A stretch of 64,000 bases of DNA from Ruminococcus sp. (GTDB lineage: Bacteria; Bacillota; Clostridia; Oscillospirales; Ruminococcaceae): positions 61,506 through 125,505 of the forward strand of contig JAFTQW010000001.1 of NCBI GenBank assembly GCA_017462565.1, written 5' to 3'. The position numbers and the translations under genes are program-made. A model generated the notes under the pieces. It saw only the letters and a program-made list of their open reading frames with translations. It was not told where the DNA came from and did not search any database. The first letter of the stretch is position 1. Each line of letters begins with the position of its first letter. Shown piece by piece: positions 7,635 to 63,820 of the stretch.

Positions 7635-7815
7635 ATGGGCGTTAGCCCTAATTAAGCTGATGCCCTATCAAAGAGCATCAGCTTAATTAATACTGGGTTT
7701 CCAAAGGGGATGTACTCCCCTTTGGCAGGGAGAATGGGGTGACTCCCTACAGTGTAGGGAGATGTCAGCTTGCTGACAGAGGGTACGGGCGACCGTTGGG
7801 AGCAGAGTCCCCCAT
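7635..7815. repeat. D-A-B hairpin repeat with F module, copy 1
   Basis: Fills the 265-base gap between the capsid and protease genes. D: GGGC (7637-7640)/GCCC (7645-7648). A: AATTAAGCTGATGC (7650-7663)/GCATCAGCTTAATT (7675-7688). B: CCAAAGGGG (7701-7709)/CCCCTTTGG (7717-7725). Instead of the usual C hairpin it carries two further stems, CTCCCTA/TAGGGAG (7743-7761) and GTCAGC/GCTGAC (7764-7777), called F here, which recur with different arms at 33944-33977. Confidence 0.85.
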
Positions 7816-7818
7816 ATA

Positions 7819-8781
7819 TCAAGTAGAAGTAACAGTAAGAACCTTAACAGCATCGGGAGTAATTTTTCTGAAACCGCAGGTAATAGAAACAGTGATCTGA
7901 TCGAGCTGACGGTCGATAAGCTTATCGGTTTCCATAACAAGGTCGGTGCTTGTGATAAATTCAAGAGCAAAATTACGGTCGATACCTATAATTTTTCCGC
8001 TTCCGGCAGCAGAGGTTTTAATAAGTTCCGAACCGAAAGGAAGCATAAGCTTTCCGTCAGCGTCAGCGGAGCATTCTGAAACGGGCTTCATAGCTGCAAT
8101 TTTAGACGCAAGCTCCGGAGAGGTAATAACGGTCGTCATATCAAAGCAGTCGAACTTTCCGTAAAGAGCGGCAAGATCATCGTAAACGAGTGAAGCTGTT
8201 GTGACGGAGGCTGCGTTTGCCGCAAGAACGTCAACAGCCTTTTTAACTACGGAGGAAGCAAGCTTAACGCCGATACTTCTAAGCATAACGCCAAAAACGT
8301 CAAGTCTCTGCTGTCTTACGGCCTCATAGGAAGTATTGATAAGTCTGCCGTATTTTTCAAGAACAGTAGCAGTAGCGCTTTCCTTAACCGTTGCAGTCGG
8401 AAGAGTTTCAGCCTGATCAGAAGTCTCATAATCGGCTGAATCATCGAGAGTACAGCCGAGATACTGTCCGGAAGCGCAGATAGTTTTTGCTGCGCAGATA
8501 GAAGAAAGAACGGTTTCATCAAATCCCTTTCTGATACAGCGTGTTACAAATTCAGGGAAAAGCACCGCTGTTTCAGTTGAAGAGAAGAATTTCTCAACAC
8601 GGTCGCATTCAGAACCGCTGATTCTGATATTGAAACGCTTGAGCTGTCTTTCAAAAGCGTCGAGCTTTTCAAGCGAAGTTCCGCAGTAAGCGGAAGAAGG
8701 GTCAAGCTCCTCAAGAGCAGATGTGAAAGATTTTCCGCTAAGATTATAAAGTCCTTTTTCAAGTTTGATTTCGTTATACAT
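7819..8781 (-). CDS. Major capsid protein (HK97-like)
   Basis: A 320-residue phage capsid protein. The middle (LINTSYEAVRQQRLDVFGVM, then LASSVVKKAVDVLAAN) matches the spine-helix and P-domain style of HK97-fold capsids, and the C-terminal third (GSGKIIGIDRNFALEFI, then QLDQITVSITCGFRKI) fits the E-loop/A-domain end. The N-terminal about 100 residues may be a scaffold-like delta domain. GGAGG lies 8 bases before the ATG. It is 48 bases downstream of the portal gene on the same strand. An encapsulin is unlikely because terminase and portal are next to it. No frameshift. Confidence 0.75.
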   Translation of the reverse strand: MYNEIKLEKGLYNLSGKSFTSALEELDPSSAYCGTSLEKLDAFERQLKRFNIRISGSECDRVEKFFSSTETAVLFPEFVTRCIRKGFDETVLSSICAAKTICASGQYLGCTLDDSADYETSDQAETLPTATVKESATATVLEKYGRLINTSYEAVRQQRLDVFGVMLRSIGVKLASSVVKKAVDVLAANAASVTTASLVYDDLAALYGKFDCFDMTTVITSPELASKIAAMKPVSECSADADGKLMLPFGSELIKTSAAGSGKIIGIDRNFALEFITSTDLVMETDKLIDRQLDQITVSITCGFRKITPDAVKVLTVTST

Positions 8782-8829
8782 AAACGTACCTCCATAAAAT
8801 AATTATAAATTTTGATTATTGTCAGTCAT

Positions 8830-9969
8830 TTATGACTGAAGCGAATTTATCCGCATTTCGATTTCCATAGCCTGAGCATTTTTCAGTCTTGTTTCGGCAA
8901 GCACAGATTCATCCTGTAAATTGATGTTGTCCCATTCAACTCTGCAAAAGGCGTCCGAGCCGATAGAACAGAGAAAAGCGCCGGCGATATCATTTATAAC
9001 AGGAGTAAGCAGACGGCGGAAATACTCCAGCTCGGAAGTAAGAATATCCGCCTGCTGAGACGACATTCTCTCCGTACTGCTCCAGCTGAGACCGAGCAGA
9101 AACGGCGGAATTGAAAGCTTTGCAATAAGCTGTTCCAAAAGCTGACGAACAGGAACGTTGGTATCAAAAAGCTGATTCTCTGCTCCGATAACCTTGATAT
9201 CCACATCACCTACAGCAACGAAGTCCTTAACCTGACCGTAGCGTGCTGAATTCATTCCGTCCGCCCATTCTCTTGCGATCTGCTGCGCCCTTTCACGGGA
9301 ATAAACCATATCTCCCGAATCAGAGGAAGGCTTATATGTGATAGCGTAGCGGACATTTCCGGCACGGTCAAAATTTTGACCGATACACTCGAATATCCGC
9401 ATAAGAATGCTGCTAAGAGCCGGAAGCCCTCTTAAAAGCGAATGACCTCCTATAAGAGAGGCGTAAAGAATCCTCTCGGGATGAGAAACGGTTTTCTCGG
9501 AATTATCGTGATTTTTTACTGTATAAACTCTTGCAAACGGATCTTTTCCGGAAGATATCCTGATTTTAGAGATATCTCCGTTCCACAATCCGGCAATACG
9601 ATTTTGGGAATCGTCAATAACGATCTCTCCGGCAGCGCTGCCATAAGTGAGCATACTGTCGAGAAAATTATCGGCAAAGGTACCGATTGATCTCCCCGTA
9701 AGTCCCACCGGAACAGCTTCAAGGAAACTATCCAGAGCCTCCTGATATCTTTCATCAGAGCAAATAACTCTGAATCCTCCGGTAAGCCGGACTATTTTCA
9801 TAATAGCAGCGTCAAGAACCGGAACGGCACAGCGAAGCCTGTCATAAAGTTCCATTTCAAAAGGCTTGACAGACGGCGGAAGATTCATTTTCCCACCGAA
9901 CTCGCGCTGAGCAGAAGCTATATCCGTAACGAGCTTAGCGCTGATGTTTTTCTTTTTAAAAAGTTTCAT
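8830..9969 (-). CDS. Phage portal protein
   Basis: A 379-residue portal protein. Recognisable are the N-terminal wing with FEMELYDRLRCAVPVLDAAI, the central LIGGHSLLRGLPALSSILMR, and the FLLGLSWSSTERMSSQQAD segment followed by a long helix EYFRRLLTPVINDIAGAFL that forms the clip/crown region in portal families of the Mu gp29/DUF935 type. The portal is the dodecameric DNA gateway that docks terminase. AAAGGAGGAAAA precedes the ATG. The gene is separated from terL by a 162-bp inverted-repeat element. The ORF is intact. Confidence 0.8.
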   Translation of the reverse strand: MKLFKKKNISAKLVTDIASAQREFGGKMNLPPSVKPFEMELYDRLRCAVPVLDAAIMKIVRLTGGFRVICSDERYQEALDSFLEAVPVGLTGRSIGTFADNFLDSMLTYGSAAGEIVIDDSQNRIAGLWNGDISKIRISSGKDPFARVYTVKNHDNSEKTVSHPERILYASLIGGHSLLRGLPALSSILMRIFECIGQNFDRAGNVRYAITYKPSSDSGDMVYSRERAQQIAREWADGMNSARYGQVKDFVAVGDVDIKVIGAENQLFDTNVPVRQLLEQLIAKLSIPPFLLGLSWSSTERMSSQQADILTSELEYFRRLLTPVINDIAGAFLCSIGSDAFCRVEWDNINLQDESVLAETRLKNAQAMEIEMRINSLQS

Positions 9970-10009
9970 TTTTCCTCCTTTTAGAAAGATCTGAACGATG
10001 ATCAGTCAT

Positions 10010-10172
10010 AAGAACCTGTATTCACAGGAGAATTTGCACGTCTTTTCGGCGAATTTTGCCTCTTACTGCGTCAAAGCTCCTTGCAATACGTCAGTATTCC
10101 TGTGGATTTTTCTTGTAATCGGCAAAATTACGTTTGAAAATCCGCACATATTTCCTATGAATACAGGTTCTG
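10010..10172. mobile_element. 162-bp inverted-repeat element (MITE-like), copy M1
   Basis: Terminal inverted repeats AGAACCTGTATTCA (10011-10024) and TGAATACAGGTTCT (10158-10171) bound a non-coding insert with the internal halves GCGAATTTTGCC and GGCAAAATTACG. Length equals the copy at 57747-57908, but the outer part of the repeat differs (TATTCA versus CCACATAGAA) in a compensated way. It lies between terL and the portal gene of the phage cassette, just after the terL stop. Confidence 0.85.
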
Positions 10173-10176
10173 AATT

Positions 10177-11424
10177 TTATCTTGAAATTGAAACGGCGAA
10201 AAAATCGTCAATGCCAGCCGAGGCGATCATGTCTGTCACGAAGTATCGCATATCATCCATAGCGTGATCATTCTCCTTGACCGGAGCGTCCATGCCGGAC
10301 TTTTCGCTCCAGCGGTAAAGCTGAAATTCTCTTAAAATATCACTGCATGATTCATGAAAACGCAGCTTATTCTCTTTAAGAGCCGAACTTACCTGACGTA
10401 TACCCTTGACAACATCGTTATCCGCCTTAACCACTCTGAATTTGCCGTGCCTGCGGATGCACTCAATAAAACTTGCGGCAGAAGGATCAACAATCACCTT
10501 GCTGATTTTCCTGTCGCCTGCAAGCTCCTCCAGAGCGGAATAATGCTCTTCGTCCGTGCGTGAAACTCCCTCTTTTTTTGAGGAGTAATAATACTCCTTA
10601 ATGCGGTGCCAGACGCCGCCTGAAAGTCCCCACAGCCCGAAAGACGATGGATTAACAGTGCCGTAATCACAGGATATAACGAAGCGTTCACACTTTATTT
10701 CGCCGCTGAAAACATGAGTTTCAGCGTTGAACATAGGATACACAACACCCTCGGAAGCCGTCCATTTTCCAAGAACGAACCTATCGTAAAATGCTCCGGA
10801 ATAAAGCCTCTTATAGCGGTTTTTCATAGTTTCTGAAAGGGAAGGGTTATCATCCATAGTGAAATGAAGATAGAGCGCACGCTTCTGCTTTGCCTTTTTG
10901 ATCCACTCATTATAGAACCAATGGGACGGATTATCGGGATTGCAGTTGAACCACATCTTAGAACCGCTGACAGAACATCTCGCAAGGGCCTGTTCGACGA
11001 ACGAACGAGGCATCAGAGCAGCTTCGTCAAAAAACACTCCGGAAAGAGTCATACCCTGAATCAAGGAAGCCGAACCCTCATCCTTTCCTCCGAAGAGATA
11101 AAAGCGGTTTGTATTTCCAAGAAAAGTGATATCAATATAATTCCTGCTGATCTTTTCCAGACAGGTAAAGCTGTATTCCTTTAAAATGGGAATCATAGGA
11201 GTTACAACATTTCTGCGAAGCGAAGTAACGGTTTTTCCGCAAAGAGCGAACGAACTTCCGTTAAAGCTTGCGCAGGCCCAGAAAATAAATCCAATAGACA
11301 TTGAAAGAGTTTTTCCGCTTCTGACAGCGCCGTCGCAGATAATAGCGTCATAATTTCGGTACTTAGGATTTTTCCACCAATTCATAGTGATTTTCTGCTT
11401 TTTTGATAATTTTTCAATCGTCAA
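10177..11424 (-). CDS. terL: Phage terminase large subunit
   Basis: DNA-packaging motor of 415 residues. Walker A is in ICDGAVRSGKTLSM, Walker B in LSGVFFDEAAL, and the RNase-H-like nuclease acids appear in VISCDYGTVNPSS, KVIVDPSAASF and DHAMDDMRYFVTD. The TTG at 11424 (TIEKLSKKQKITMNWW follows) is preferred: AGAGGA lies upstream, the encoded KLSKKQK is typical of terL N-termini, and it overlaps the terS stop by 11 bases. An ATG at 11385 lacks a ribosome site; the open frame further up to 11559 runs inside terS and is rejected. Intact ATPase and nuclease residues are notable in an element lacking most phage genes. Confidence 0.9.
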   Translation of the reverse strand: MTIEKLSKKQKITMNWWKNPKYRNYDAIICDGAVRSGKTLSMSIGFIFWACASFNGSSFALCGKTVTSLRRNVVTPMIPILKEYSFTCLEKISRNYIDITFLGNTNRFYLFGGKDEGSASLIQGMTLSGVFFDEAALMPRSFVEQALARCSVSGSKMWFNCNPDNPSHWFYNEWIKKAKQKRALYLHFTMDDNPSLSETMKNRYKRLYSGAFYDRFVLGKWTASEGVVYPMFNAETHVFSGEIKCERFVISCDYGTVNPSSFGLWGLSGGVWHRIKEYYYSSKKEGVSRTDEEHYSALEELAGDRKISKVIVDPSAASFIECIRRHGKFRVVKADNDVVKGIRQVSSALKENKLRFHESCSDILREFQLYRWSEKSGMDAPVKENDHAMDDMRYFVTDMIASAGIDDFFAVSISR

Positions 11425-11905: not shown

Positions 11906-11975
11906 AATAAAAAGACCTCCTTTCAGTCATTGAGCGGAACTGATCACCGTTCATAGGAGGGCTGAAATGAGGCCG

Positions 11976-11999
11976 TATACAACTAAAAACCGTTGTATA
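11976..11999. promoter_or_regulatory. Dyad upstream of terS, candidate operator or hairpin
   Basis: TATACAAC (11976-11983) and GTTGTATA (11992-11999) are perfect complements around 8 bases, 71 bases upstream of the terS start. Possible regulator site for the cassette; no T-run, so not a clear terminator. Confidence 0.45.
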
Positions 12000-12114: not shown

Positions 12115-12168
12115 TATTTTGAAGGTAATTCTATCCCCTTTATTTTCTGACAATGGCAACATATCTAT

Positions 12169-12285
12169 GGGCAGCGCCCTAACAAATTGACCTACTCACA
12201 AATGAGTAGGTCAATTTGTTAATATCGGGTTTCCAAAGGGGATGTACTCCCCTTTGGCAGGGGTTTGAGGGGACAGCGTCCCCTT
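12169..12285. repeat. D-A-B-C hairpin repeat, copy 2
   Basis: D: GGGC/GCCC (12169-12179). A: 18-bp arms AACAAATTGACCTACTCA (12181-12198) and TGAGTAGGTCAATTTGTT (12203-12220). B: CCAAAGGGG/CCCCTTTGG (12233-12257). C: AGGGGAC/GTCCCCT (12268-12284). The C hairpin overlaps the azlD stop codon. The A arms share no sequence with copies 1 or 3 yet pair perfectly. Confidence 0.88.
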
Positions 12286-12580
12286 AAAAAAGTCCAAAGA
12301 TAAAAGCCGCAGCGGAAGCTGAAAGAGCCACGACAATAAGCGGCAGGTCGAAATAAGCCAGAATAACAGCAACGACCGTACCGGCAACCGAAGTTACAAG
12401 ATTTCCGGTGCTGTAAAAAATAGCAGGAATAGTCATTGCGCTCAAGACGGCGTAAGGGATATAATAAAGAAAGCTTCTGAAAAACCTTGAAGTGATCTTC
12501 TTTCGGAAAAAGGCGAAAGGAATCATTCTTATAAGGTAAGTTACGACAGCCATAACGGCGATATACACTATCAGACTCAC
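12284..12580 (-). CDS. azlD: Branched-chain amino acid exporter small subunit AzlD
   Basis: A 98-residue membrane protein with three to four hydrophobic helices (SLIVYIAVMAVVTYLIRMIP, YYIPYAVLSAMTIPAIFY, TVVAVILAYFDLPLIVVALS). The R-x-x-P-F motif after the first helix (RMIPFAFF) is the AzlD signature. With AzlC it exports branched-chain amino acids or analogues. GTG start overlapping the azlC stop by 4 bases (GTGA), so translation is coupled. Its stop lies inside a repeat hairpin. Confidence 0.88.
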   Translation of the reverse strand: MSLIVYIAVMAVVTYLIRMIPFAFFRKKITSRFFRSFLYYIPYAVLSAMTIPAIFYSTGNLVTSVAGTVVAVILAYFDLPLIVVALSASAAAFIFGLF

Positions 12581-17951: not shown

Positions 17952-18065
17952 TGGCGATAGCCATAATTATTTCAAATACCTTTGGTATTTGAAATAATTA
18001 ATACTGGGTTTCCAAAGGGTTGAATAACCCTTTGGCAGGGGTTTAAGGGGACAGAGTCCCCTTAA
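17952..18065. repeat. D-A-B-C hairpin repeat, copy 3
   Basis: D: TGGC/GCCA (17952-17963). A: AATTATTTCAAATACC (17965-17980)/GGTATTTGAAATAATT (17984-17999). B: CCAAAGGGTT/AACCCTTTGG (18012-18035). C: AAGGGGAC/GTCCCCTT (18045-18063). Lies 17 bases past the stop of the epimerase gene. Confidence 0.9.
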
Positions 18066-18081
18066 GCTGCGACATATGATA

Positions 18082-22696: not shown

Positions 22697-22868
22697 GCAG
22701 CGTGACGCTGCACCCAATCACGATGTTACTACCCATAAAAGATTTCAGAACACATCGCTCGTGGTTTACTATCATTAAAAGATTTCTTTAAAGGCGACGT
22801 GACGCTGCACCCAGCCACGATGTTACTACCCACAAAAGATTTCAGAACACATCGCTCGTGATTTACCC
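22697..22868. repeat. K repeats, tandem pair (copies K1 and K2)
   Basis: Two copies, 22697-22778 and 22793-22868, of a unit that begins GCAGCGTGACGCTGC and CACCCA, continues CACGATGTTACTACCCA and ends ACATCGCTCGTGGTTTAC; the CACGA and TCGTG parts can pair. The first directly follows the TPM stop. Other copies at 26737 and 29645. Confidence 0.85.
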
Positions 22869-22874
22869 ATAATA

Positions 22875-22952
22875 ACGGGTTTCCAAAGGGTTGAATAACC
22901 CTTTGGCAGAGTGCAGGGACAGCGTCCCTGCTGGGGTATCGGGGCAAAGCCC
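22875..22952. repeat. B-C hairpin repeat without D/A, copy 4
   Basis: B: CCAAAGGGTT/AACCCTTTGG (22883-22906). C: GCAGGGAC/GTCCCTGC (22913-22931), then a second stem GGGGC/GCCCC (22941-22952). The C arms differ from other copies (GCAGGGAC instead of AAGGGGAC) but remain complementary. Confidence 0.8.
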
Positions 22953-26736: not shown

Positions 26737-26810
26737 GCAGCGTGACGCTGCACCCAGTCACGAAGTTACTACCCATAAAAGATAGAATAACACATCGCTC
26801 ATGATTTACC
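26737..26810. repeat. K repeat, copy K3
   Basis: GCAGCGTGACGCTGC then CACCCAGTCACGAAGTTACT and ACATCGCTCATGATTTACCA; matches K1/K2. Confidence 0.85.
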
Positions 26811-26880
26811 ATAGTATGGGGCAATGCTAACAACTTAAGAGATTTTATTTCTTTAACACCCATAAAAGGATATCTACCAT

Positions 26881-26994
26881 TGGCGATAGCCATAATTATT
26901 TCAAATACCATCGGTATTTGAAATAATTAATACCGGGTTTCCAAAGGGGATTTACTCCCCTTTGGCAGGGGTTTAAAGGGGGACAGAGTCCCCC
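26881..26994. repeat. D-A-B-C hairpin repeat, copy 5
   Basis: D: TGGC/GCCA (26881-26892). A: AATTATTTCAAATACC/GGTATTTGAAATAATT (26894-26928). B: CCAAAGGGG/CCCCTTTGG (26941-26965). C: GGGGGAC/GTCCCCC (26978-26994), ending 4 bases before the stop codon of the P-loop gene. Confidence 0.9.
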
Positions 26995-26997
26995 TGA

Positions 26998-27872: not shown

Positions 27873-29651
27873 ATGGGCGAGAAATTTTCAATCTTTAATA
27901 TTTTCACCATGCTCGGCGGACTCGCTTTCTTCCTTTACGGAATGAACGTTATGTCTACCGGACTTGAAAAGCTTACCGGAGGCAAGCTTGAGGTTGCTTT
28001 GAAAAAAATGACCTCGAATAAAATCAAAAGCCTTCTTCTGGGCGCAGGTATTACTATTGCTATACAATCATCATCTGCGCTTACAGTTATGCTTATAGGT
28101 CTTGTTAACTCAGGAATCATGCAGATCGAGCAAACTGTTGGAATTTGTTTCGGCTCAAATATAGGAACCACGCTTACGGCATGGATTCTTAGCCTGTCCG
28201 GAATTGAAGGCGGTAACTTTTTCATTAAAATGCTTAAACCGGAATCATTTTCACCTCTTATAGCTCTTACAGGCATTATCATGATAATGATATGCAAAAA
28301 GAATAAAAAGAAAGATATCGGACGTATTCTTGTAGGTTTTGCAATTCTCATGACGGGTATGACTCTTATGTCTGATTCTGTTAATCCGCTTGCAAATTCT
28401 CCGGAATTTCAAAAAATGCTTACAGCTTTTCAGAATCCTTTCCTCGGCGTTCTTGTCGGAGCTGTATTCACCGGTATTATTCAAAGTTCTGCGGCGTCTA
28501 TAGGCATTCTTCAGGCATTTTCACTTACCGGAGGTCTTTCCAATGGAATGGCTCTTCCTATCATCATGGGACTGAATATCGGAACCTGCGTCACTGCTCT
28601 TATTTCAAGCATTGGCGTTAAGAAAAATGCAAAGAGAGTAGCGTGTATTCATCTTCTGATAAATACATTAGGAACACTAATTCTGCTTCCGATCGTACTT
28701 ATTCTCGAAAATCTTGTGCATCTTAGTATATTAAGCGATACAGCCAATGCATTTTCAATCGCTTTTATGCATACTATCTTTAATGTTGCAATAACCATAA
28801 TATTTATACCATTTTCTGAAACTCTTTGTAAAATATCAAAAACGATTATCAAAGACGGTAAGGACGAAAACGGAGAGAATCCAAAGCCTACAGTCGTACT
28901 TGACGATATATTGCTGAAAACTCCTGCCGTAGCAGTTGAAGCCTGCAAGGGAGCAACCATTGAAATGGCAGAGCTTACAAAAGAAACAATCATGAAGGCT
29001 CTTGAAATATTGACCGTATATAACGAAGAAACAGCCGAATCCATTATCGAAAACGAAGATATCATCGACGGCTTTGAGGATAAAATAAACGGCTATCTTC
29101 TTAAAATATCACGAAGCAGCGTTACCGGAAACGACAGCCGAAGCGTTTCAAAAATGATGCACTGCGTAGGAAACTTTGAACGAATTTCCGATCATGCCGT
29201 AAATCTGGTTGAATCGGCTCAGGAAATGCACGAAAAGGGTATAAAGTTTTCTGCCGAATGTCTCAATGAAATCTCGGTTATAACCGACGCTATATCCGAA
29301 AACATAAGCAAAGCGTTTGAATCCTATAAACTGAACGATCTGGCAGTTGCACATAAGGTTGAGCCGCTTGAAGAAGTGGTCGATAACCTCAGCACCGAGC
29401 TTAAAAACCGTCATATCCGCCGTTTGCAGAACGACGAATGTACCGTTGAGCTTGGATACATTTTTCAGGATATTCTCACCAATCTTGAACGTATTTCCGA
29501 TCACTGCTCAAATATTGCCGGATGTCTGATAGAAACGGACGAAAAAACCAACATACACGAATATCTCCACGACGTTAAGGAAAACGACGAAACATTCCGC
29601 CGTGAATACCGTGAATATGCCGAAAGCTATTTCTCCAGACTTGAAGCGTGA
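27873..29651 (+). CDS. Na/Pi cotransporter family protein with PhoU domain
   Basis: A 592-residue membrane transporter. The N-terminal about 330 residues hold two inverted Na/Pi repeats with the QSSSA motifs (AIQSSSALTVMLIGL and IIQSSAASIGILQAF) that bind sodium and phosphate; the C-terminal about 200 residues are a cytosolic PhoU-like helical bundle (MHCVGNFERISDHAVNL and TNLERISDHCSNIAG). It likely imports inorganic phosphate or senses it. GGAGCG precedes the ATG. The stop codon TGA lies inside the K repeat palindrome that follows, so the repeat has landed exactly on the gene end. Confidence 0.92.
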   Translation: MGEKFSIFNIFTMLGGLAFFLYGMNVMSTGLEKLTGGKLEVALKKMTSNKIKSLLLGAGITIAIQSSSALTVMLIGLVNSGIMQIEQTVGICFGSNIGTTLTAWILSLSGIEGGNFFIKMLKPESFSPLIALTGIIMIMICKKNKKKDIGRILVGFAILMTGMTLMSDSVNPLANSPEFQKMLTAFQNPFLGVLVGAVFTGIIQSSAASIGILQAFSLTGGLSNGMALPIIMGLNIGTCVTALISSIGVKKNAKRVACIHLLINTLGTLILLPIVLILENLVHLSILSDTANAFSIAFMHTIFNVAITIIFIPFSETLCKISKTIIKDGKDENGENPKPTVVLDDILLKTPAVAVEACKGATIEMAELTKETIMKALEILTVYNEETAESIIENEDIIDGFEDKINGYLLKISRSSVTGNDSRSVSKMMHCVGNFERISDHAVNLVESAQEMHEKGIKFSAECLNEISVITDAISENISKAFESYKLNDLAVAHKVEPLEEVVDNLSTELKNRHIRRLQNDECTVELGYIFQDILTNLERISDHCSNIAGCLIETDEKTNIHEYLHDVKENDETFRREYREYAESYFSRLEA

Positions 29652-29715
29652 CGCTGCACCCGAACACGGAGTTACTTCCGATAAAAGATAAAAGAACACT
29701 TCGCTCGTGGTTTAC
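29645..29715. repeat. K repeat, copy K4
   Basis: AGCGTGACGCTGCACCC and CACTTCGCTCGTGGTTTACT. The GCGTGACGC core contains the Na/Pi stop codon (29649-29651). Confidence 0.82.
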
Positions 29716-29756
29716 TATTATTAAAAGATTTTCTTATAGGCAGCCTATAAAGCATT

Positions 29757-29839
29757 CTAATAATGGGATTCCAAAGGGATAATATCCCTTTGGCAGGTCA
29801 AGGACAGCGTCCTTGCAGGGTGTGGGACAGAGTCCCACA
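29757..29839. repeat. B-C-C2 hairpin repeat, copy 6
   Basis: B: CCAAAGGGATA/TATCCCTTTGG (29771-29793). C: AAGGAC/GTCCTT (29800-29814). C2: TGTGGGAC/GTCCCACA (29821-29839). As in copy 4 it lies between a K repeat and an E element and lacks D and A. Confidence 0.82.
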
Positions 29840-32471: not shown

Positions 32472-33827
32472 TTATTTTTTCTTATTTTTCTCCATATAGC
32501 GATTCAGGAAGCCGATATCGTAATTACCGCTTCTGAAATCGGAATTCTTGATTATTTCGAGCTGGAAGTCGATATTGGTGTCAACGCCCTCAACGATAAA
32601 TTCCGAAAGAGCCCATTTCATTTTATTGATAGCGTCCTCTCTGTCAGAACCGTGAGCAATGAGCTTGCTTATCATGGAATCGTAATACGGAGTAATGGTA
32701 TAACCCTGATAAACAGCGCCGTCTATTCTTATTCCCGGACCGCCGGGCATATAAAGAGCCGTAATAGTTCCAGGAGAAGGACGGAAATTAAACTCCGGAT
32801 TCTCCGCATTTATTCTGCATTCAATAGCGTGACCTCTTAATTTGATATCATTTTGTGAAACGCTTAAAGGCAGATCTGCCGCAACCTCTATCTGAGCCTT
32901 AACGAGGTCAAATCCGGTAACTTCCTCGGTTATAGGATGTTCGACCTGAATTCGTGTATTCATCTCCATGAAATAGAAATCACGGTTTTCGTCAACGAGG
33001 AATTCAATAGTTCCGGCATTGTAGTATCCGCACTGCTTTGCGGCAGTAACAGCAGCCTCGCCCATACGTTTACGAAGCTTTTCGTCCACTATCGGACTCG
33101 GACACTCTTCAAGCACCTTCTGATTTCTTCTCTGCATAGAGCAGTCTCTCTCTCCGAGATATATGTAATTTCCGTGCTTGTCAGCGATTATCTGGATCTC
33201 GACATGATGCGGATTTATAAGGAATTTCTCGATATAAACAGCGTCGTCGCCGAAAAAGTTCTTCGCTTCCTGCTGAGCGGCAGTCATCTGCTCCTCAAGC
33301 TCTTCCGGCGAATCCACACGGCGTATGCCTCTTCCGCCGCCGCCTGCGGAAGCCTTTACCAGAACGGGATATCCTGCCTTTTCAGCAACCTCAGCAGCCT
33401 CTCCGACCGAGCTTACCGCACCTTCAGAGCCTGGAATAACAGGAACTCCGGCAGCAGCCATAGTCTCTTTAGCGGCAGCCTTATCGCCGAGCATTTCTAT
33501 AGATTTATATGACGGCCCGATAAAAACGATGCCGTTGGCTTCACAAAGCCTTGCAAATTCCGCATTTTCGGAAAGAAAGCCGAATCCGGGATGAATAGCC
33601 TCCGCGCCCGTATTAAGAGCAGCCTGTATGATAGCGTTCATATTAAGGTAGCTGTCTTTCGTTGCCGGAGGACCTATACATATCGCTTCATCGGCGATCT
33701 GAGCATGAAGAGCGTTTCTGTCGGCAGTGGAATAAACTGCAACGCAGCGTATACCAAGCTCACGGCAGGCTCTTATAATGCGTACTGCGATCTCTCCTCT
33801 GTTAGCGATCAATACTTTTTTAAACAT
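32472..33827 (-). CDS. accC: Acetyl-CoA carboxylase biotin carboxylase subunit
   Basis: A 451-residue ATP-grasp enzyme that carboxylates biotin on AccB. It begins MFKKVLIANRGEIAVRIIRA and contains LVKASAGGGGRGIRRV (ATP-binding glycine loop), EKFLINPHHVEIQI, ERDCSMQRRNQKVLEE and NTRIQVEHPITEEVTG (catalytic base region), all standard. ATG follows AAGGAGAAT. Full length. An inverted-repeat element (33845-34080) separates it from fabZ. Confidence 0.96.
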   Translation of the reverse strand: MFKKVLIANRGEIAVRIIRACRELGIRCVAVYSTADRNALHAQIADEAICIGPPATKDSYLNMNAIIQAALNTGAEAIHPGFGFLSENAEFARLCEANGIVFIGPSYKSIEMLGDKAAAKETMAAAGVPVIPGSEGAVSSVGEAAEVAEKAGYPVLVKASAGGGGRGIRRVDSPEELEEQMTAAQQEAKNFFGDDAVYIEKFLINPHHVEIQIIADKHGNYIYLGERDCSMQRRNQKVLEECPSPIVDEKLRKRMGEAAVTAAKQCGYYNAGTIEFLVDENRDFYFMEMNTRIQVEHPITEEVTGFDLVKAQIEVAADLPLSVSQNDIKLRGHAIECRINAENPEFNFRPSPGTITALYMPGGPGIRIDGAVYQGYTITPYYDSMISKLIAHGSDREDAINKMKWALSEFIVEGVDTNIDFQLEIIKNSDFRSGNYDIGFLNRYMEKNKKK

Positions 33828-33844
33828 AGATATTGATTCTCCTT

Positions 33845-34080
33845 AAGGCAACACCGCACAAAGATTGTCGTGCAGATGCGCCGTGAAAATTTTCGTCAGA
33901 TTGCATAAATTTGACGCAGCAATACTGATGTATTGCAAGGTGACTCCCCACGGGGTGGGGAGATGTCCCAAAGGGACAGAGGGGACGATTCCCGGTTAGG
34001 GAAATTTGTGTGACATGACAGGAATTTTCCAAGCAGATGCATAACAAAGGCGTTAGCCGCTCTTTGTGCGGTGCCGCCTT
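33845..34080. mobile_element. Inverted-repeat element N1 with F module
   Basis: Ends AAGGCAACACCGCACAAAG (33845-33863) and CTTTGTGCGGTGCCGCCTT (34062-34080), 17 of 19 matching. It encloses GATGCGCCGT and CAGATGC segments plus an F module with stems CTCCCCA/TGGGGAG (33944-33962) and GTCCC/GGGAC (33965-33977), the same arrangement as in repeat copy 1. It fills nearly the entire gap between accC and fabZ. Confidence 0.8.
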
Positions 34081-35043: not shown

Positions 35044-36300
35044 TTAATCGGTAACCTTTTTAAAGCAGAGGGTAGCGTTATGTCCGCCGAAGCCCAGAGA
35101 ATTTGAAAGAGCCGCACGAACCTCCTGCTGAACATTTCCCTCAACGCAGTAATCGAGGTCGCACTCCTCGTCGGGAACCTTATAGCCGACCGTCTTATGG
35201 ATAAGATCCTCCTGGATAGACTTTGCGCAGACGATAGCCTCAACAGCTCCGGCAGCGCCAAGAAGATGACCTATCATGGATTTTGTCGAATTTATCTTGA
35301 CATTTTTTGCATCGCCGCCGAAAGCAAGCTTGATAGCGGCAGTTTCATATTTATCATTAAGACCGGTCGCAGTTCCGTGAGCGTTTATATAGTCTATATC
35401 CGACGGCTTCAATCCTGCCTCCTGCATAGCGAGAGTCATACCCATTCCTGCCGCTTCACCTGTCGGCATAGGAGAAGTCATATGATAGCCGTCGCAGGTC
35501 GCACCATATCCGGCTACTTCGGCATAGATCTTAGCTCCTCTTGCCTTTGCGTGCTCATATTCTTCAAGAACGAGAACGCCGCTTCCCTCGCCGAGAACAA
35601 AACCGCTTCTTTCCTTATCGAACGGAATTGACGCTCTTTCGAGGTCGTCGCTTTTGGAAAGAGCCTTCATATTGGCAAAACCGCCGTATGTGAACTCAAC
35701 GCTGGTACTTTCAGTGCCTCCGGCAACGCAGACATCAAGATAGCCGTCCTTGATCTTGCGGAAAGCCTCTCCGATAGCGTGAGTTCCGGAAGCGCACGCC
35801 GTAGTTACGTCATAATTAGCGCCTCTGAATCCTGTTTTCATGGAAATAGTACCGGCAGCCATATTGCTTATCATCATAGGAATATAGAAAACGGAAATTC
35901 TTCCCGGACCTTTTTCAAGGTATTTGCTGTACTCTGAAAGAGTCAGATCGACTCCGCCTATACCGCAGCCGATAATGACTCCGGCTCTGTAAGCGTCGAT
36001 ATCGGAAAAGTCCGAATCTGCGTCCTCAAGAGCTTCGTGAGCTGAAACGAGCGCATATTTTGTAAAGGTATCCATGCGCTTAGCTTCTTTTTTATCGAAG
36101 CAGCCCTTAATGCCGTAATAAGCCGTTTCGTCGAAATCACGGACAATACCGCCGATCTTAACGCCGATACGTTCCGTATCAAATTTATCTATATATGAAA
36201 AACCAATTTTATTTTCTTTAATGCCATTCCAGAATTTATCTACGCCTGTTCCGAGCGGAGTAACAGCTCCCATACCCGTAATAACAACTCTTCTGCTCAT
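35044..36300 (-). CDS. fabF: 3-oxoacyl-ACP synthase II
   Basis: A 418-residue elongating condensing enzyme. Catalytic triad Cys169 (TTACASGTHAIG), His308 (INAHGTATG) and His345 (KSMIGHLLGAAG), with Lys340. Starts MSRRVVITGMGAVTPLGTGV. AAAGGA precedes the ATG. Upstream, element N2 separates it from fabG, so the cluster transcript reads through an inverted repeat. Confidence 0.96.
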   Translation of the reverse strand: MSRRVVITGMGAVTPLGTGVDKFWNGIKENKIGFSYIDKFDTERIGVKIGGIVRDFDETAYYGIKGCFDKKEAKRMDTFTKYALVSAHEALEDADSDFSDIDAYRAGVIIGCGIGGVDLTLSEYSKYLEKGPGRISVFYIPMMISNMAAGTISMKTGFRGANYDVTTACASGTHAIGEAFRKIKDGYLDVCVAGGTESTSVEFTYGGFANMKALSKSDDLERASIPFDKERSGFVLGEGSGVLVLEEYEHAKARGAKIYAEVAGYGATCDGYHMTSPMPTGEAAGMGMTLAMQEAGLKPSDIDYINAHGTATGLNDKYETAAIKLAFGGDAKNVKINSTKSMIGHLLGAAGAVEAIVCAKSIQEDLIHKTVGYKVPDEECDLDYCVEGNVQQEVRAALSNSLGFGGHNATLCFKKVTD

Positions 36301-36317
36301 AAAAATTCCTTTCTTTT

Positions 36318-36493
36318 AAGGCAATATCGCACAAAGATTGTGCGTCAGATGCGCCGTCAGATTTTTCGTCAGATTACATAAAAATTTTGCGGGCAGGCTA
36401 ACGCCTGTCAAGAGATCTTTGTGTAAGATGACGGAAAATATGCAAGCAGATGACGTGCAAAACCGCCAGGTGTGCTTTGTACGGTATTGCCTT
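36318..36493. mobile_element. Inverted-repeat element N2
   Basis: Ends AAGGCAATATCGCACAAAG (36318-36336) and CTTTGTACGGTATTGCCTT (36475-36493) with 17 of 19 matching; 176 bp, non-coding. It contains the GATGCGCCGTCAGATTTTTC and AAGCAGATG segments of N1 but no F module. Confidence 0.85.
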
Positions 36494-45841: not shown

Positions 45842-45956
45842 AAGGGGACGCTGTCCCCTTTAACCCCTGCCAAAGGGTTATTCAACCCTTTGGAAACCCG
45901 GTATTAGATAAATGGAAATACCCCATAAAGGGGTATTTCCATTTATCCGAATAGAA
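45842..45956. repeat. D-A-B-C hairpin repeat, copy 7 (reverse)
   Basis: C: AAGGGGAC/GTCCCCTT (45843-45861). B: CCAAAGGGTT/AACCCTTTGG (45870-45893). A: TAAATGGAAATACCCC/GGGGTATTTCCATTTA (45909-45946). Lies directly after guaB in the reverse orientation, so the C hairpin serves the gene end. A fragment of the family N end (AAGGCAACACCGTACA) is at 45991-46006; the rest of 45957-46077 shows nothing else. Confidence 0.88.
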
Positions 45957-46077
45957 TTCCACATGATGAATAAAATCGTTGACAGAAGGCAAGGCAACAC
46001 CGTACAGATCAGGTAATATTGTCAATTTATGACAATTCTGTTCCTTATACTCTTTTCAAAAAGTGTGTTCATTCTAT

Positions 46078-46200
46078 GGGCGCTCTGCCCTAATTATTTC
46101 CAATACCTCTTTATGAGGTATTGGAAATAATTAATATCGGGATTCCAAAGGGGATGTACTCCCCTTTGGCAGGGGGCAAGGGGGGGACAGCGTCCCCCTT
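46078..46200. repeat. D-A-B-C hairpin repeat, copy 8
   Basis: D: GGGC/GCCC (46078-46090). A: AATTATTTCCAATACCTC/GAGGTATTGGAAATAATT (46092-46132). B: CCAAAGGGG/CCCCTTTGG (46145-46169). C: GGGGGAC/GTCCCCC (46182-46198). Directly upstream of the preQ1 riboswitch. Confidence 0.9.
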
Positions 46201-53314: not shown

Positions 53315-53450
53315 ATTGCAGCACTTCCTTTACACAAAACCTGCCCGAAACTCATTTCAGACAAGTTTATTATATCATTTATTTTTTGTTTTGTAAAGCC
53401 TGCTCATTCCCGATCATAGAATAACAGCATTTGCTTTTCTATCTGTTATT

Positions 53451-53565
53451 AAGGGGACGCTGTCCCCTTAACCCCTGCCAAAGGGATATTATCCCTTTGG
53501 AAACCCAGTATTAATCAATTCTGATACCCATAAAGGGTATCAGAATTGATTAGAGTAGAATGCCC
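53451..53565. repeat. D-A-B-C hairpin repeat, copy 9 (reverse)
   Basis: C: AAGGGGAC/GTCCCCTT (53451-53469). B: CCAAAGGGATA/TATCCCTTTGG (53478-53500). A: AATCAATTCTGATACCC/GGGTATCAGAATTGATT (53513-53551). The A arms are again unlike those of other copies. 53566-53741 holds only an AATAACRGYATTTGCTTTT direct repeat of an earlier stretch (53420 versus 53665). Confidence 0.88.
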
Positions 53566-53741
53566 AGACAGAAATAATTCCGTTCAACAAGAGGTTAAAG
53601 AAACAAAGTTTGCTTAATAAACGTAATAAAAGATGAATGCTGTTGCTCTGATCCCAATTATAAAATAACGGTATTTGCTTTTAATTATGTTTATCCAGTG
53701 GACTTTGTATCTTAAACTTTTGCCAAATTGTATTCATTTTT

Positions 53742-53853
53742 TGGCGACAGCCATAATTATTTCAAATACCATTGGTATTTGAAATAATTAATACTGGGTT
53801 TCCAAAGGGTTGAATAACCCTTTGGCAGGGGTTTAAGGGGACAGCGTCCCCTT
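53742..53853. repeat. D-A-B-C hairpin repeat, copy 10
   Basis: D: TGGC/GCCA (53742-53753). A: AATTATTTCAAATACC/GGTATTTGAAATAATT (53755-53789). B: CCAAAGGGTT/AACCCTTTGG (53802-53825). C: AAGGGGAC/GTCCCCTT (53835-53853). It faces copy 9 (inverse orientation, about 190 bases apart) just upstream of the ffs promoter. Confidence 0.9.
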
Positions 53854-53909
53854 GAGTAAACATAATTAAAAGTAAACGCATCCATCCCGTTTACTTTTAA
53901 AATTTACTC

Positions 53910-57746: not shown

Positions 57747-57908
57747 AGAACCTGTCCACATAGAAATTATGTGCGGATTTTCGGGAAAATTTTGTCGAGG
57801 GCAAGGCGAAAAAGTGAAAGCATACTATCGTATGGTGAGCTTTTTCAACACAGCAATCGGCAAAATTTTCCGAAAAGACGTGCGGAATCTTCTATGTGGA
57901 CAGGTTCT
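57747..57908. mobile_element. 162-bp inverted-repeat element (MITE-like), copy M2
   Basis: 19-bp ends AGAACCTGTCCACATAGAA (57747-57765) and TTCTATGTGGACAGGTTCT (57890-57908) are perfect complements. Inside, ATTATGTGCGGATTTTCGG and its counterpart near AAATTTTCCGAAAAGACGTG also pair, so the whole unit can fold to one long hairpin. No ORF. It is identical to the part of copy M3 that is visible. Confidence 0.9.
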
Positions 57909-59550: not shown

Positions 59551-59570
59551 TTTGATTCCTCCTGTTAATC

Positions 59571-59620
59571 AGGGCAACAATGGACAAAGCCGTCAGGCGA
59601 GCTTAGTGCGGTGTTGCCTT
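59571..59620. repeat. Mini inverted-repeat relic N3
   Basis: AGGGCAACAATGGACAAAG (59571-59589) and TTAGTGCGGTGTTGCCTT (59603-59620); ends of family N with the interior reduced to about 14 bases. Confidence 0.7.
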
Positions 59621-59731
59621 AAATTTCGTTTCTATAATATACTTTCGCATAAACTGCTTGAACTGTCACATATTCTGAAATATTTTTTTCTTTTACTTAA
59701 TGCAGTCTCTAAAACAATGCCGACAACTAAG

Positions 59732-59850
59732 CGGGGACTCTGTCCCCGTACCCCTGCCAAAGGGGAGTAAATCCCCTTTGGAAACCCAGTATTAATTATT
59801 TTCATTACCTCGTAAAGAGGTAATGAAAATAATTAAGGTAGAATGCCCAT
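59732..59850. repeat. D-A-B-C hairpin repeat, copy 11 (reverse)
   Basis: C: CGGGGAC/GTCCCCG (59732-59748). B: CCAAAGGGG/CCCCTTTGG (59757-59781). A: AATTATTTTCATTACCTC/GAGGTAATGAAAATAATT (59793-59833). Remaining 59851-60037 is the lead-in AACAACTTGAGGACTTTTGT (reverse) plus an AT-rich stretch without a gene. Confidence 0.88.
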
Positions 59851-60037
59851 AGAATGAACTTCCTTTTGAAAAGAGAAAAGGAAACAAAAGTCCTCAAGTT
59901 GTTTGCATTAACTTCTAAAGCCCTATAATGTCTAATTGCTGAATCGTAAAATCTGCGGTACGATCTATAATTATTTTTCACATAAAAAAGCACATCTTCC
60001 CGACAAAATATGTCCAAAAGATGTGCAGGATAGAATT

Positions 60038-60958: not shown

Positions 60959-60991
60959 GAAATTGCTCCTTTGTGATGTGGATTATGGATC

Positions 60992-61218
60992 AGAGCGTGT
61001 TCACATAAAATAAATGCGCGGATTTTCGAGCATAATTTTGGCGAATACAAGGGTGTGGGTGTCCAGTGGACACCTCTGTGAAGCAGAAGCACCGACCGAG
61101 ACGACAGTCGAGACTCGAAAATATGCAGGCAAGCTGTCGCTTGGCAAATATTTTCAACGCAGTAGCCGTCAAAATTTGCCGAAAATACGTGCGTTGTATT
61201 TTTATGTGAACACGCTCT
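60992..61218. mobile_element. 227-bp inverted-repeat element (family M variant), copy M4
   Basis: Perfect 19-bp ends AGAGCGTGTTCACATAAAA (60992-61010) and TTTTATGTGAACACGCTCT (61200-61218). The interior shares GCGGATTTTCGAGCATAATT and AAAATTTGCCGAAAATACGT with M2 but has about 65 extra bases with a GTGTCCA/TGGACAC stem. The 61219-61442 gap beyond it holds only the thrS terminator and a short GTCTGCG repeat. Confidence 0.88.
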
Positions 61219-61407
61219 ATTATATGTTTAAAAAGTTCTTTGGGTTTCTGAAAATGCACAACTATTCTGAAAGTTTCAGTTAAGCCTTTTCAAAGGCTTG
61301 AGGAGTCCGCAGACTGCGAAATCCTTACCGTTACGTCTGCGTAATTATTGCGCAGAATTTTACTATAAATTAATTTTACCACATTATCCCTTAAATTACA
61401 AGAAAAA

Positions 61408-61440
61408 ATTTGCGGAGACACAATATCTCCGCAAACTTTC
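61408..61440 (-). terminator. Terminator of thrS
   Basis: TTTGCGGAGA (61409-61418)/TCTCCGCAAA (61426-61435) followed on the minus strand by TTTTTT. Confidence 0.85.
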
Positions 61441-61442
61441 AT

Positions 61443-63389
61443 TTATCTTACTTTTTTAGCAATATCGTCGATAAGCTTTACAAGCAGATCAGCCTGAGTC
61501 ATCGAGCCGAGGTCGCCCTCTCTTCTCGAACGTACCGAAACTGTTCCGTCTTCAACCTCTTTATCGCCGATAGTGAGCATTATCGGGAGCTTTTCAACCG
61601 TTGCGCTGCGTATCTTCCAGCCAACCTTTTCTGCTCTGTCATCAATAGAAGCTCTGATTCCGGCAGCTTCAAGCTTTTCAAGAACCTCTCTGCCGTAATC
61701 GAGATGACGGTCTGCAACAGGAATTATTCTTACCTGTTCAGGAGCTACCCAGAGCGGAAGCGCTCCGGCATATTTTTCGATCATATATGCAAGAGTTCTC
61801 TCATAACAGCCGAGGGAAGTTCTGTGGATAATATAAGGACGCTTCTTTGTTCCGTCAACGTCAACGTACTCCATGCCGAAACGCTCTGCAAGAAGCATAT
61901 CTATCTGGATAGTAACGAGAGTATCTTCCTTGCCGTAAACGTTTTTATACTGAATATCAAGCTTAGGACCGTAGAATGCGGCTTCGTCAATGCCGATAGA
62001 ATATTCAACTCCGAGATGATCGAGGATCTTAGCCATTGCAGCCTGAGCCTCTTCCCACTGCTCGGCGGTTCCCTCATATTTATTATCAGGATTAGCAGGA
62101 TCCCACTGCGAGAAACGGAAAGTACAGTCTTCAAGCAAGCCTACTGTTCCGAGCATATATTTTGCAAGCTCCAGACAGCCCTTGAATTCCTCTTCAAGCT
62201 GGTCGGGACGAAGAACAAGGTGTCCCTCTGAAATTGTGAACTGACGAACACGGATAAGACCGTGCATCTCGCCGGAATCCTCTTTACGGAAGAGAGTGGA
62301 AGTTTCACCCAGACGCATCGGAAGATCTCTGTAGGAACGCTGTCTATTGAGGTAAACCTGATACTGGAATGGGCAGGTCATCGGACGAAGAGCGAAACAC
62401 TCCTTTGTTTCGTCATACGGATCGCCGAGGATGAACATACCGTCAAGATAGTGATCCCAGTGACCGGAAATTTTATAGAATTCTCTCTTAGCCATAAGAG
62501 GAGTTTTTGTGAGAAGATAGCCGTGCTTCTGCTCAACGTCCTCAACCCAGCGCTGGAGAGTCTGAATAACTCTTGAACCCTTTGGAAGGATTATCGGAAG
62601 ACCCTGACCAACAACGTCGACTGTTGTGAAATATTCAAGCTCACGTCCAAGCTTATTGTGGTCACGCATTTTAGCTTCCTCACGCTGCTTGATATCTGCT
62701 TCAAGTTCGGCAGCCTTCGGATAAGCCGTTGCATAAACACGTGAAAGCATCTTGTTCTTTTCAGAACCTCTCCAGTATGCTCCGGTGCAGGAAAGAAGCT
62801 TGAATGCCTTGACCGGAGCGGTCGTCATAAGGTGAGGGCCTGCGCACAAGTCAACGAATTCGCCCTGCTTATAAAATGAGATAGGCTCGCCCTTGCCGAC
62901 GTGTTCCTCACAAAGCTCGACCTTATAAGGCTCGTCCATTTCTTTAAGCTTGGCGATAGCTTCTTCCGGAGAAAGCTCAAACTGCTCAAGGGGCAGACCT
63001 TCCTTAACGATCTTCTTCATTTCAGCCTCGATTTTTTCAAGTTCATCCTGAGTAAACGGCTTTTCAAGGTCGAAATCATAATAAAAACCATTGTCGATAG
63101 CCGGACCGATAGCAAGCTTAGCCTGCGGATAAAGTCTTTTCACTGCCTGTGCAAGAATGTGGGAAGCCGTATGCCAGAAAGTCTTTTTGCCGTCGATAGA
63201 ATCGAATGTACAGACCTCGAATTCGCAGTCGCTGTCAACAACAGTGCGGAGATCCTTGACCTCGCCGTTGATCTTAACGCAGCATGAAGCCTTGTAAAGT
63301 CCCATGCCGATTCCCTTGATGATTTCGGAAGCGGGCATTGCAGATTCGATCTCACGAATACTGCCGTCCTTTAATGTTAATCTGATCAT
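61443..63389 (-). CDS. thrS: Threonyl-tRNA synthetase
   Basis: A 648-residue class II synthetase charging tRNA-Thr. N-terminal TGS domain (MIRLTLKDGSIREIESAMPA), editing domain with HTASHILAQAVKRLYP and the YYDFDL region, catalytic core (AMKRE-like motif LMAKREFYKISGHWDHYLDG, then FALRPMTCPFQYQVY with the zinc Cys, then EHGLIRVR-type EMHGLIRVRQFT) and anticodon-binding domain at the end (VRIIPVADRHLDYG). The ATG at 63389 with AAGGAGAAT is used; the open frame upstream lies in the T-box. Confidence 0.97.
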   Translation of the reverse strand: MIRLTLKDGSIREIESAMPASEIIKGIGMGLYKASCCVKINGEVKDLRTVVDSDCEFEVCTFDSIDGKKTFWHTASHILAQAVKRLYPQAKLAIGPAIDNGFYYDFDLEKPFTQDELEKIEAEMKKIVKEGLPLEQFELSPEEAIAKLKEMDEPYKVELCEEHVGKGEPISFYKQGEFVDLCAGPHLMTTAPVKAFKLLSCTGAYWRGSEKNKMLSRVYATAYPKAAELEADIKQREEAKMRDHNKLGRELEYFTTVDVVGQGLPIILPKGSRVIQTLQRWVEDVEQKHGYLLTKTPLMAKREFYKISGHWDHYLDGMFILGDPYDETKECFALRPMTCPFQYQVYLNRQRSYRDLPMRLGETSTLFRKEDSGEMHGLIRVRQFTISEGHLVLRPDQLEEEFKGCLELAKYMLGTVGLLEDCTFRFSQWDPANPDNKYEGTAEQWEEAQAAMAKILDHLGVEYSIGIDEAAFYGPKLDIQYKNVYGKEDTLVTIQIDMLLAERFGMEYVDVDGTKKRPYIIHRTSLGCYERTLAYMIEKYAGALPLWVAPEQVRIIPVADRHLDYGREVLEKLEAAGIRASIDDRAEKVGWKIRSATVEKLPIMLTIGDKEVEDGTVSVRSRREGDLGSMTQADLLVKLIDDIAKKVR

Positions 63390-63411
63390 GATAATATTCT
63401 CCTTTTCGCAT

Positions 63412-63455
63412 AAAATAAAAACGCCCCATATGCCTATAATTAGGCACAAGGGACG
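63412..63455 (-). terminator. T-box-controlled terminator of thrS
   Basis: CGTCCC...TGCC pairs with GGCA...GGGGCG on the minus strand, then TTTTTATTTT; it lies between the T-box sequence and the thrS start and is the switchable hairpin. Confidence 0.85.
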
Positions 63456-63655
63456 ATAATAAACCGTGATTCCACCCTGATTCACACGGAATAAAATTCC
63501 GTATCTCATTGGCTCGTTAACGGGAGCAGCCGGCGTGTATTGAACGCACTCAGAGGCGGTGTGCATCATTCCCTGTTATACAGCCTTCCCACCAATCGGC
63601 TGCTCTCTGAAATAACGCTGCGGAATTTGCCTTCCTCATCAAAGATTTAAGATAT
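63412..63655 (-). ncRNA. T-box leader of thrS
   Basis: The minus strand has AGGGTGGAATCACGG (63465-63479), the conserved T-box that pairs with the uncharged tRNA acceptor end, plus GATGAGGAAGG and CAGAGAGCAGCC...GGTGGGAAGGC of stem I. ACC at 63558-63560 (GCACACCGCC) is the best specifier-codon candidate and fits threonine. Uncharged tRNA-Thr would prevent termination and switch thrS on. Confidence 0.9.
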
Positions 63656-63664
63656 TACAAATAT

Positions 63665-63693
63665 ATCTTATCATACTTTTTCTTATTTGTCAA
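63665..63693 (-). promoter_or_regulatory. Promoter of thrS
   Basis: Minus strand TTGACA (63688-63693), 17 bases ending in TGA, TAAGAT (63665-63670). Confidence 0.82.
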
Positions 63694-63706
63694 GGACTTT
63701 TTTTAT

Positions 63707-63820
63707 AAGGGAACTCTGTCCCCTTAAACCCCTGCCAAAGGGTGAATCCAACCTTTGGAAACCAGGTATTAATTATTTCAAATACCAATGGCATTTGAAA
63801 TAATTATGGCTATCGCCAAT
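63707..63820. repeat. D-A-B-C hairpin repeat, copy 12 (reverse, decayed)
   Basis: C and B are imperfect here (CCAAAGGGT/AACCTTTGG, about 63735-63758). A: AATTATTTCAAATACC/GGCATTTGAAATAATT with one mismatch (63771-63805). D: TGGC/GCCA (63807-63818). Immediately upstream of the thrS promoter. Loss of pairing in B and C makes this the least conserved copy. Confidence 0.85.

Follow-up and report, generated by a model that had tools for sequence, protein, structure and literature searches.

The 64,000 nt of Ruminococcus sp. DNA analysed here (hereafter the window) hold twelve copies of a dispersed repeat, each recognisable by a conserved stem that is referred to as B. In ten of these copies (7637, 12169, 17952, 26881, 45842, 46078, 53448, 53742, 59715 and 63706), four hairpins, termed D, A, B and C, follow one another in a row, D being weak in some. 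The repeats are short, non-coding mobile elements of Ruminococcus and belong to a genome-wide family of non-autonomous miniature inverted-repeat transposable elements (MITEs), typically about 190 or 240 bp long. Their A hairpin varies widely in sequence between copies and is almost perfectly paired within each of them, and we lean towards a DNA-level templating process under a pairing constraint as the origin of this joint change of both arms.

The pattern used for the B stem, CCAAAGGG-N(3-30)-CCCTTTGG, matched the window at 11 places compared with none in 100 shuffled sequences, and the twelfth B stem (63735-63758) departs from it by a single altered base. An initial annotation, made from the sequence alone, had described about twelve copies, two of them decayed or short. 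A B stem is indeed present at all twelve places, but the two copies in question (22883 and 29771), which consist of B and GC-rich hairpins and lack A, are both preceded by a different 97-nt repeat and therefore represent a separate arrangement rather than decayed copies. The same annotation regarded B as nearly constant, which holds for the outer seven base pairs, partly because they served as the search key, but not for the inner three to four base pairs, which vary as pairs.

Throughout the genome, 106 exact CCAAAGG-N(5-14)-CCTTTGGCAG sites were counted, 54 in forward and 52 in reverse orientation; 100 of them were listed and 99 analysed as DNA, site C53:6184 being left out. The fetched stretches and the window together gave 108 parsed B-like matches, a few of which are false second hits. 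An A hairpin reached the strict score in 74 of the 108 (49 different left arms), and imperfect A hairpins are present in five or more of the remaining 34 (L019, L024, L025, L065 and L078). Since all parsed copies were located via B, copies without B escape this count. Among 60 genomes searched, the B pattern was present in 21, namely the source genome, 19 others of the same genus and one of another genus, and a pattern scan of named genomes returned, among at least 109 stretches listed, mostly Ruminococcus and Oscillospiraceae. No match to the B module was obtained in the phage records searched. A search of the open-access literature found no description of these repeats, which does not prove that none exists elsewhere.

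When left and right flanks were compared within copies, terminal inverted repeats (TIRs) were found in many, with partial or diverged ends in many others. Subfamily 1 carries the TIR CAATGCCAACAACTTAAG and its elements mostly measure 185-190 bp, while subfamily 2 carries CA(C/T/G)GGCAACAGCATTTACTTTTT and mostly measures approximately 236-240 bp, up to 302 bp with insertions. Both TIRs were found in 26 complete rows, which fall into these two TIR types; one pair, in L339, has a common right end. Target duplications (8 bp or longer, one mismatch allowed) flank 8 of the 26 complete rows and are 9-10 bp long, mostly 10 bp, compared with 2 positives in 650 when the same test was applied to mismatched flank pairs. 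The distance between the ends ranges from 155 to 302 bp, 3 of 131 copies fall within an open reading frame (ORF) as crudely called, and three or more subfamily-1 copies (L006, L031 and L065) are nested in C hairpins that belong to other copies. As a separate observation, extra copy-specific outer arms of 15-80 nt, partly complementary, extend beyond the TIR in L064, L043, L053, L109, L140 and L150, perhaps as a result of nested insertions into palindromic targets.

The congener G031 is syntenic with the source genome, its flanks differing by about 8% at the three copies compared. Among the orthologous sites listed, many are empty in G031, some are occupied by the same element and some by a different one. 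Within the window, the site of copy 3 spans 224 nt in the source genome vs a 3-nt gap in G031, and G031 has no interval corresponding to copy 5 (gap -23). The orthologue of copy 1 continues from the left part into A and lacks the right arm and B, and the segment enclosed by the inverted copies 7 and 8 at 45842-46200 is flipped in G031 (45842-46198), a small inversion between repeats.

A candidate for the mobilising enzyme came from the contig ends. The terminus GCAACAGCATTTAC(T/A)TTTT lies approximately 116 nt from many of them, and the contig ends read belong to one repeated insertion sequence (IS) that is cut by the assembly and whose left end bears an ORF starting with MKIERLTERLSELTDPRRTRYGNIRHKLEDIV. 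This protein start was counted 13 times in the source genome and was present in 5 of 125 genomes of the genus, including the source but not G031. The TIR CACGGCAACAGCATTTAC is common to MITE subfamily 2 and the multicopy IS. A complete relative in G026, with 88% identity across the 32 residues that were compared, is bounded by the matching TIRs CACGGCAACAGCATTTACTTTTT and shows a 9-bp duplication, AGTTGCAAC; its protein of 366 aa matches NF033564, the ISAs1 family transposase, at 4.8e-110, and also PF13808 and PF01609. Because of this relative, the IS of the source genome is assigned to ISAs1, and the shared ends suggest that subfamily 2 is presumably moved in trans by the ISAs1 transposase. 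The PF13808 search of the source genome returned one match below the cut-off to a divergent, different ORF on contig C6 (31.5 bits) and did not match the cut IS copies.

Covariation of the A hairpin was evaluated with 31 distinct hairpins from the source genome and G031, defined by their distance from B and a geometry of 18 + 5 + 18 nt. They were selected from 138 distinct stretches by a minimum of 12 Watson-Crick pairs out of 18, the remainder having other arm lengths or no A; such a selection favours a high level of pairing, but not the diversity of pair types. In this set, 16 of the 18 pairs change on both sides, and the covariation score reached 0.697, compared with 0.175 for shuffled arms (0 of 500 shuffles reached the observed value) and at most 0.133 when the arms were slid. 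With all geometries included, 82 distinct arm pairs (111 hairpins, both genomes) show three to four Watson-Crick types at each of positions 5-13, and their cells comprise 1436 Watson-Crick, 24 G.U, 11 A.C and 17 other combinations. Hairpins with 11-13 pairs do not occur among the 138 distinct stretches at the fixed geometry.

The compensated change claimed for A by the initial annotation is thereby borne out, 97.5% of the cells being paired vs 71.0% with the arms re-dealt, a level reached by 0 of 500 shuffles. Its description of the arms as unrelated between copies is accurate for positions 5-13, but the outer TAAT and the inner CC(C) recur. An origin of the A arms in neighbouring DNA, which had been named as a finding that would refute the claim, was considered and rejected: 22 matches to the copies' own flanks were counted, not significantly above the shuffles (mean 14.8, range 7-26).

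The strength of the constraint on pairing was estimated from 21 subfamily-1 copies. Substitutions per site amounted to 0.177 in the upstream linker (152/857) and 0.317 in the 3-nt A loop (20/63), while the A arms reached 0.015 (11/714); among the 357 A pairs, 350 were unchanged, 4 were double changes to another Watson-Crick pair, 2 were G.U and 1 was C.A. The A arms thus change far more slowly than linker and loop, so that pairing is constrained. Homogenisation between copies is made less likely by the loop, which varies freely while the arms on either side of it are frozen. This set was picked partly by A sequence, 28 rows having been aligned at first and 7 of them removed as other subfamilies, and any linker exchange between subfamilies would make the linker rate overstate the neutral rate, leaving the loop rate unaffected. 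The result was re-checked with copies found through the D hairpin, which is independent of A past the first bases. Here, 45 places (34 of them with one mismatch or none) yielded 28 distinct copies. Of these, 24 have 16-17 of 17 Watson-Crick A pairs and two have 15, the remaining two being without a hairpin (L341 cleanly so). Six orthologue pairs with G031 passed, and in three of them the element is the same in both genomes. Two of the six are crossed by the local inversion and one holds different elements; in the three usable pairs, arm sites changed at 3 of 110 vs 92 of 1183 flank sites, numbers too small to lean on. We would guess that an A hairpin with imperfect pairing either impairs the movement of the element or is soon corrected or lost.

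A further trace was left in the loops. Among 66 five-nt A loops, 38 read TTTAT or TTTAC and 7, distributed over six arm sequences, read ATAAA or GTAAA, the exact reverse complements; the plain reverse or plain complement of TTTAT/TTTAC, taken as control, was seen in 0 of 66. On the left arm TAATCCTTACGGATACCC, the TTTAT and ATAAA loops, which are three substitutions apart, are both present in two copies each, and L079 combines an inverted loop with a compensated change relative to its own subfamily. Inverted B loops are rarer, with GTTATTCAAC in 2 copies (an orthologous pair) vs GTTGAATAAC in 28, and GTGAATCCAC in 1 vs 14. As the inversion of a perfect hairpin alters the loop only, loop inversion is the trace expected of template switching or of recombination between the arms. 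Monttinen and Loytynoja (2022, PMC8794818) hypothesised that a compensated change together with a loop inversion would be the strongest support for a template switch, and describe this combination as extremely rare in their rRNA data. The hairpins described there share with A the compensated stem changes and the inverted loops on intact stems, but are located in rRNA and microRNA genes with rare inversions, whereas A is a long stem of a bacterial mobile element.

Copies from other genomes make up 137 distinct rows, a set in which the palindromic L164 is counted twice and L184 is probably identical to G031. In 27 of these rows, B is preceded at a gap of 7-14 nt by a stem with a score of 9 or more. 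Within a wider limit of 36 nt, such a stem was found in 39 of the 137 rows, some of these being a neighbouring B stem, and in just 2 of 137 did any of 12 base-order shuffles score as high. The arms before B are unrelated in sequence in the water-deer and rabbit Ruminococcus, Clostridium NALB_7861_8 and others, and long palindromes before B were seen by eye in some copies from other phyla. These variable hairpins suggest that the order of variable hairpin, B and C is more widely distributed than the ISAs1 ends, although host terminators could account for part of the hairpins preceding B elsewhere. Separately, a near-identical B-C module (GGGTTTCCAAAGGG...CCCTTTGGCAGGG) was noted in records named Acetobacteraceae, Lentisphaerae, Methylobacterium, Falsiroseomonas and Desulfovibrio (L098, L117, L157, L160, L087 and others).

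The initial annotation offered two explanations, and the data lend support to each: the low substitution rate of the arms speaks for selection on structure, and the loop inversions speak for the copying of one arm from its partner. We slightly favour DNA-level templating under a pairing constraint as the cause of the A-arm co-change. A polymerase may switch template between the A arms during replication, probably at the fork, and would thereby transfer a change to the opposite arm, sometimes turning the loop round; variants that do not restore the pairing would be removed, since paired DNA may be needed or tolerated. Several observations weigh against this explanation. The 7 inverted A loops are not all independent events, and imperfect A hairpins, shifted or with several mismatches, were seen outside the fixed geometry (those of the five copies mentioned above and L232). 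Paired change is far slower than pure templating would predict from the linker rate, so that templating alone fails. On the side of mobilisation, the sole complete IS copy seen belongs to another species, the source-genome copies being cut at contig ends, and the TIR of subfamily 1 is related but different and has no identified transposase. Finally, G.U exceeds A.C in A by 24:11 (p=0.04), or 22:11 (p=0.08) when counted by distinct local context, with 9:4 in the D hairpin and 43:25 (p=0.04) for A, B, C and D combined; such a G.U excess leans to one strand, as RNA would. The 24:11 count refers to distinct arm pairs with equal penalties for G.U and A.C, an earlier count of 32:11 cells having come from a parser that penalised A.C more.

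This strand signal belongs to an explanation by RNA-structure selection, in which a transcript of one direction would contain hairpins acting in RNA (stability, termination or RNase III sites) and compensatory substitutions would arise in two steps. It would also account for conserved arms around a free loop, as in selected stems. The inner pairs of B together with C, however, are balanced at 10:10, the total without D is 34:21 (p=0.10), and recurrent exact inversion of the loop is unexpected under such selection. Relative to neighbouring genes, A copies show no clear orientation preference on the basis of crude ORF calls (++ 17, +- 5, -+ 8 and -- 24 in the source genome; 13, 6, 2 and 14 in G031), and no Rfam family reached its gathering score over the copies, the sub-threshold match with the best E-value being Clostridiales-2 with 20.6 bits vs 58.6. 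An RNA role for the hairpins is weakly indicated, and we consider RNA selection as the source of the co-change possible but doubtful. If, in contrast, the mutational process merely homogenised the arms in a neutral manner and no selection took place, the loop inversions and the absence of hairpins with 11-13 pairs at the fixed geometry would follow. The 4 double changes in 357 pairs are nevertheless far rarer than the changes in the linker, and some imperfect hairpins persist outside that geometry, which renders purely neutral switching quite improbable.

Unlikely, although somewhat less so, is a modular exchange, in which nested insertion or recombination would replace A by different pre-formed hairpins, derived from older elements or host palindromes, and the arms would never evolve in place. 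Subfamily-1 elements inside the C hairpins of other copies (L065), sites that hold a different element in G031 and the variable hairpin 7-14 nt before B in other species would all fit such a scheme, but differences compensated at a single pair are found within one subfamily, the 4 double changes occurred within subfamily 1, and copy 7 (45907-45947) differs from its G031 counterpart L213 by one compensated change from a G-C to an A-T pair. The hairpins, the intergenic location and the high copy number also recall repetitive extragenic palindromic sequences and bacterial interspersed mosaic elements (REP/BIME), moved as single-stranded hairpins by a Y1 transposase (RAYT/IS200). This we regard as highly improbable, since the family has true TIRs with target duplications of 9-10 bp, one subfamily sharing its ends with an ISAs1-family DDE element, and the search for a dedicated RAYT or IS200-like transposase that had been proposed as a check gave 0 PF01797 (Y1_Tnp) matches in the 66-contig assembly at E 0.001, while the same search was positive in 5 of 14 control genomes. 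The more far-reaching idea that A is rewritten within the element's life cycle is speculative and improbable in our judgement. Here, a fold-back step during replication or transposition would rebuild one arm from the other, so that A would be a "structure-only" inherited part with free sequence and enforced pairing, and the order of variable hairpin, B and C observed in other Ruminococcus species, and possibly in other phyla, would stem from an ancient hairpin replicator with different, borrowed transposon ends.

In comparison with known systems, the elements resemble MITEs that are cross-mobilised by ISAs1 insertion sequences in being short, non-coding, intergenic and multicopy, in their target duplications and, for subfamily 2, in the TIRs held in common with the IS. 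They differ from known MITEs in their row of four hairpins, one of which is variable in sequence and yet almost perfectly paired. The earlier assertion that REP-type repeats do not vary in this way has to be withdrawn: in the passages concerned, PMC2817692 reports that modified REPs keep the palindrome, "suggesting selection for complementary mutations", and PMC3733652 describes REP subfamilies with alternative complementary stem residues. Dispersed intergenic palindromes with complementary stem changes are thus common to both, whereas the Ruminococcus family differs in its true ends and target duplications and in the lack of any Y1 transposase found. Sponge mitochondrial hairpin elements, according to passages of PMC2800124, likewise comprise several hairpins with conserved stems and variable loops and spread between genes, but they are mitochondrial, and transposon ends are not mentioned in those passages. 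The novelty lies in the combination of a MITE with hairpin behaviour that resembles template switching.

One genome provides approximately 75-80 parsed A hairpins (74 strict, 82 looser) with many different sequences and free loops, and it can be compared with a sister species. This set allows template switching to be separated from selection by counts, and bears on the question of how long stems change both arms together. The elements therefore offer a natural test of how paired changes arise, which is also open to an assay in laboratory strains.

Table 1. Positions of the twelve repeat copies and their hairpins within the window.
Copy	Position	Strand	D	A	B	C	Remarks
1	7637..7761	+	7637-7648	7649-7689	7701-7725	C region after B	A with TAATTAAGCTGATGC arms
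2	12169..12288	+	12169-12179	12180-12221	12233-12257	12264-12288	
3	17952..18067	+	17952-17963	17964-18000	18012-18035	18041-18067	subfamily 1
4	22883..22931	+		no A	22883-22906		GC hairpin 22913-22931; 97-nt repeat 22796-22892 before
5	26881..26995	+	26881-26892	26893-26929	26941-26965	26977-26995	subfamily 1
6	29771..29839	+		no A	29771-29793		GC hairpin 29821-29839; 97-nt repeat (29645-29741) 30 nt upstream
7	45842..45959	-	45949-45959	45907-45947	45870-45893	45842-45860	
8	46078..46200	+	46078-46090	46091-46133	46145-46169	46180-46200	head to head with copy 7
9	53448..53567	-	53555-53567	53512-53552	53478-53500	53448-53472	D weak (2/4 pairs)
10	53742..53857	+	53742-53753	53754-53790	53802-53825	53831-53857	subfamily 1
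11	59715..59910	-	59837-59847	59792-59836	59757-59781	59732-59748	D with 3/4 pairs
12	63706..63818	-	63807-63818	63770-63806	63735-63758	63706-63726	subfamily 1; one G.T pair in A

The individual copies are listed in Table 1. The ends of copy 11 are similar to the subfamily-1 TIR, and a target duplication was not recognised there. In copy 1, the C region is broken from approximately position 7740 by another small palindromic repeat. This repeat of about 60 bp (CTCCCTACAGTGTAGGGAGATGTCAGC...GGGAGC, with variants) lies inside a C or B hairpin at approximately 7740-7803 of the window and in L044, L052, L084, L201, L290 and L314, as if it inserted into hairpin loops. The 97-nt repeat (AGCGTGACGCTGCACCC...) occupies 22699-22892, 26739-26835 and 29645-29741 of the window. 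It ends at or near B in copies without A, and it begins within the B hairpin in L255, L259 and L325. Two further repeats were noticed in the window: a two-copy repeat at 33814-33909 and 36287-36382 (76% alike) that contains AAGGCAA(C/T)A(C/T)CGCACAA and is possibly a further MITE family, and a 137-nt repeat of 100% identity at 57747-57883 and 63864-64000, the latter copy reaching the window end.

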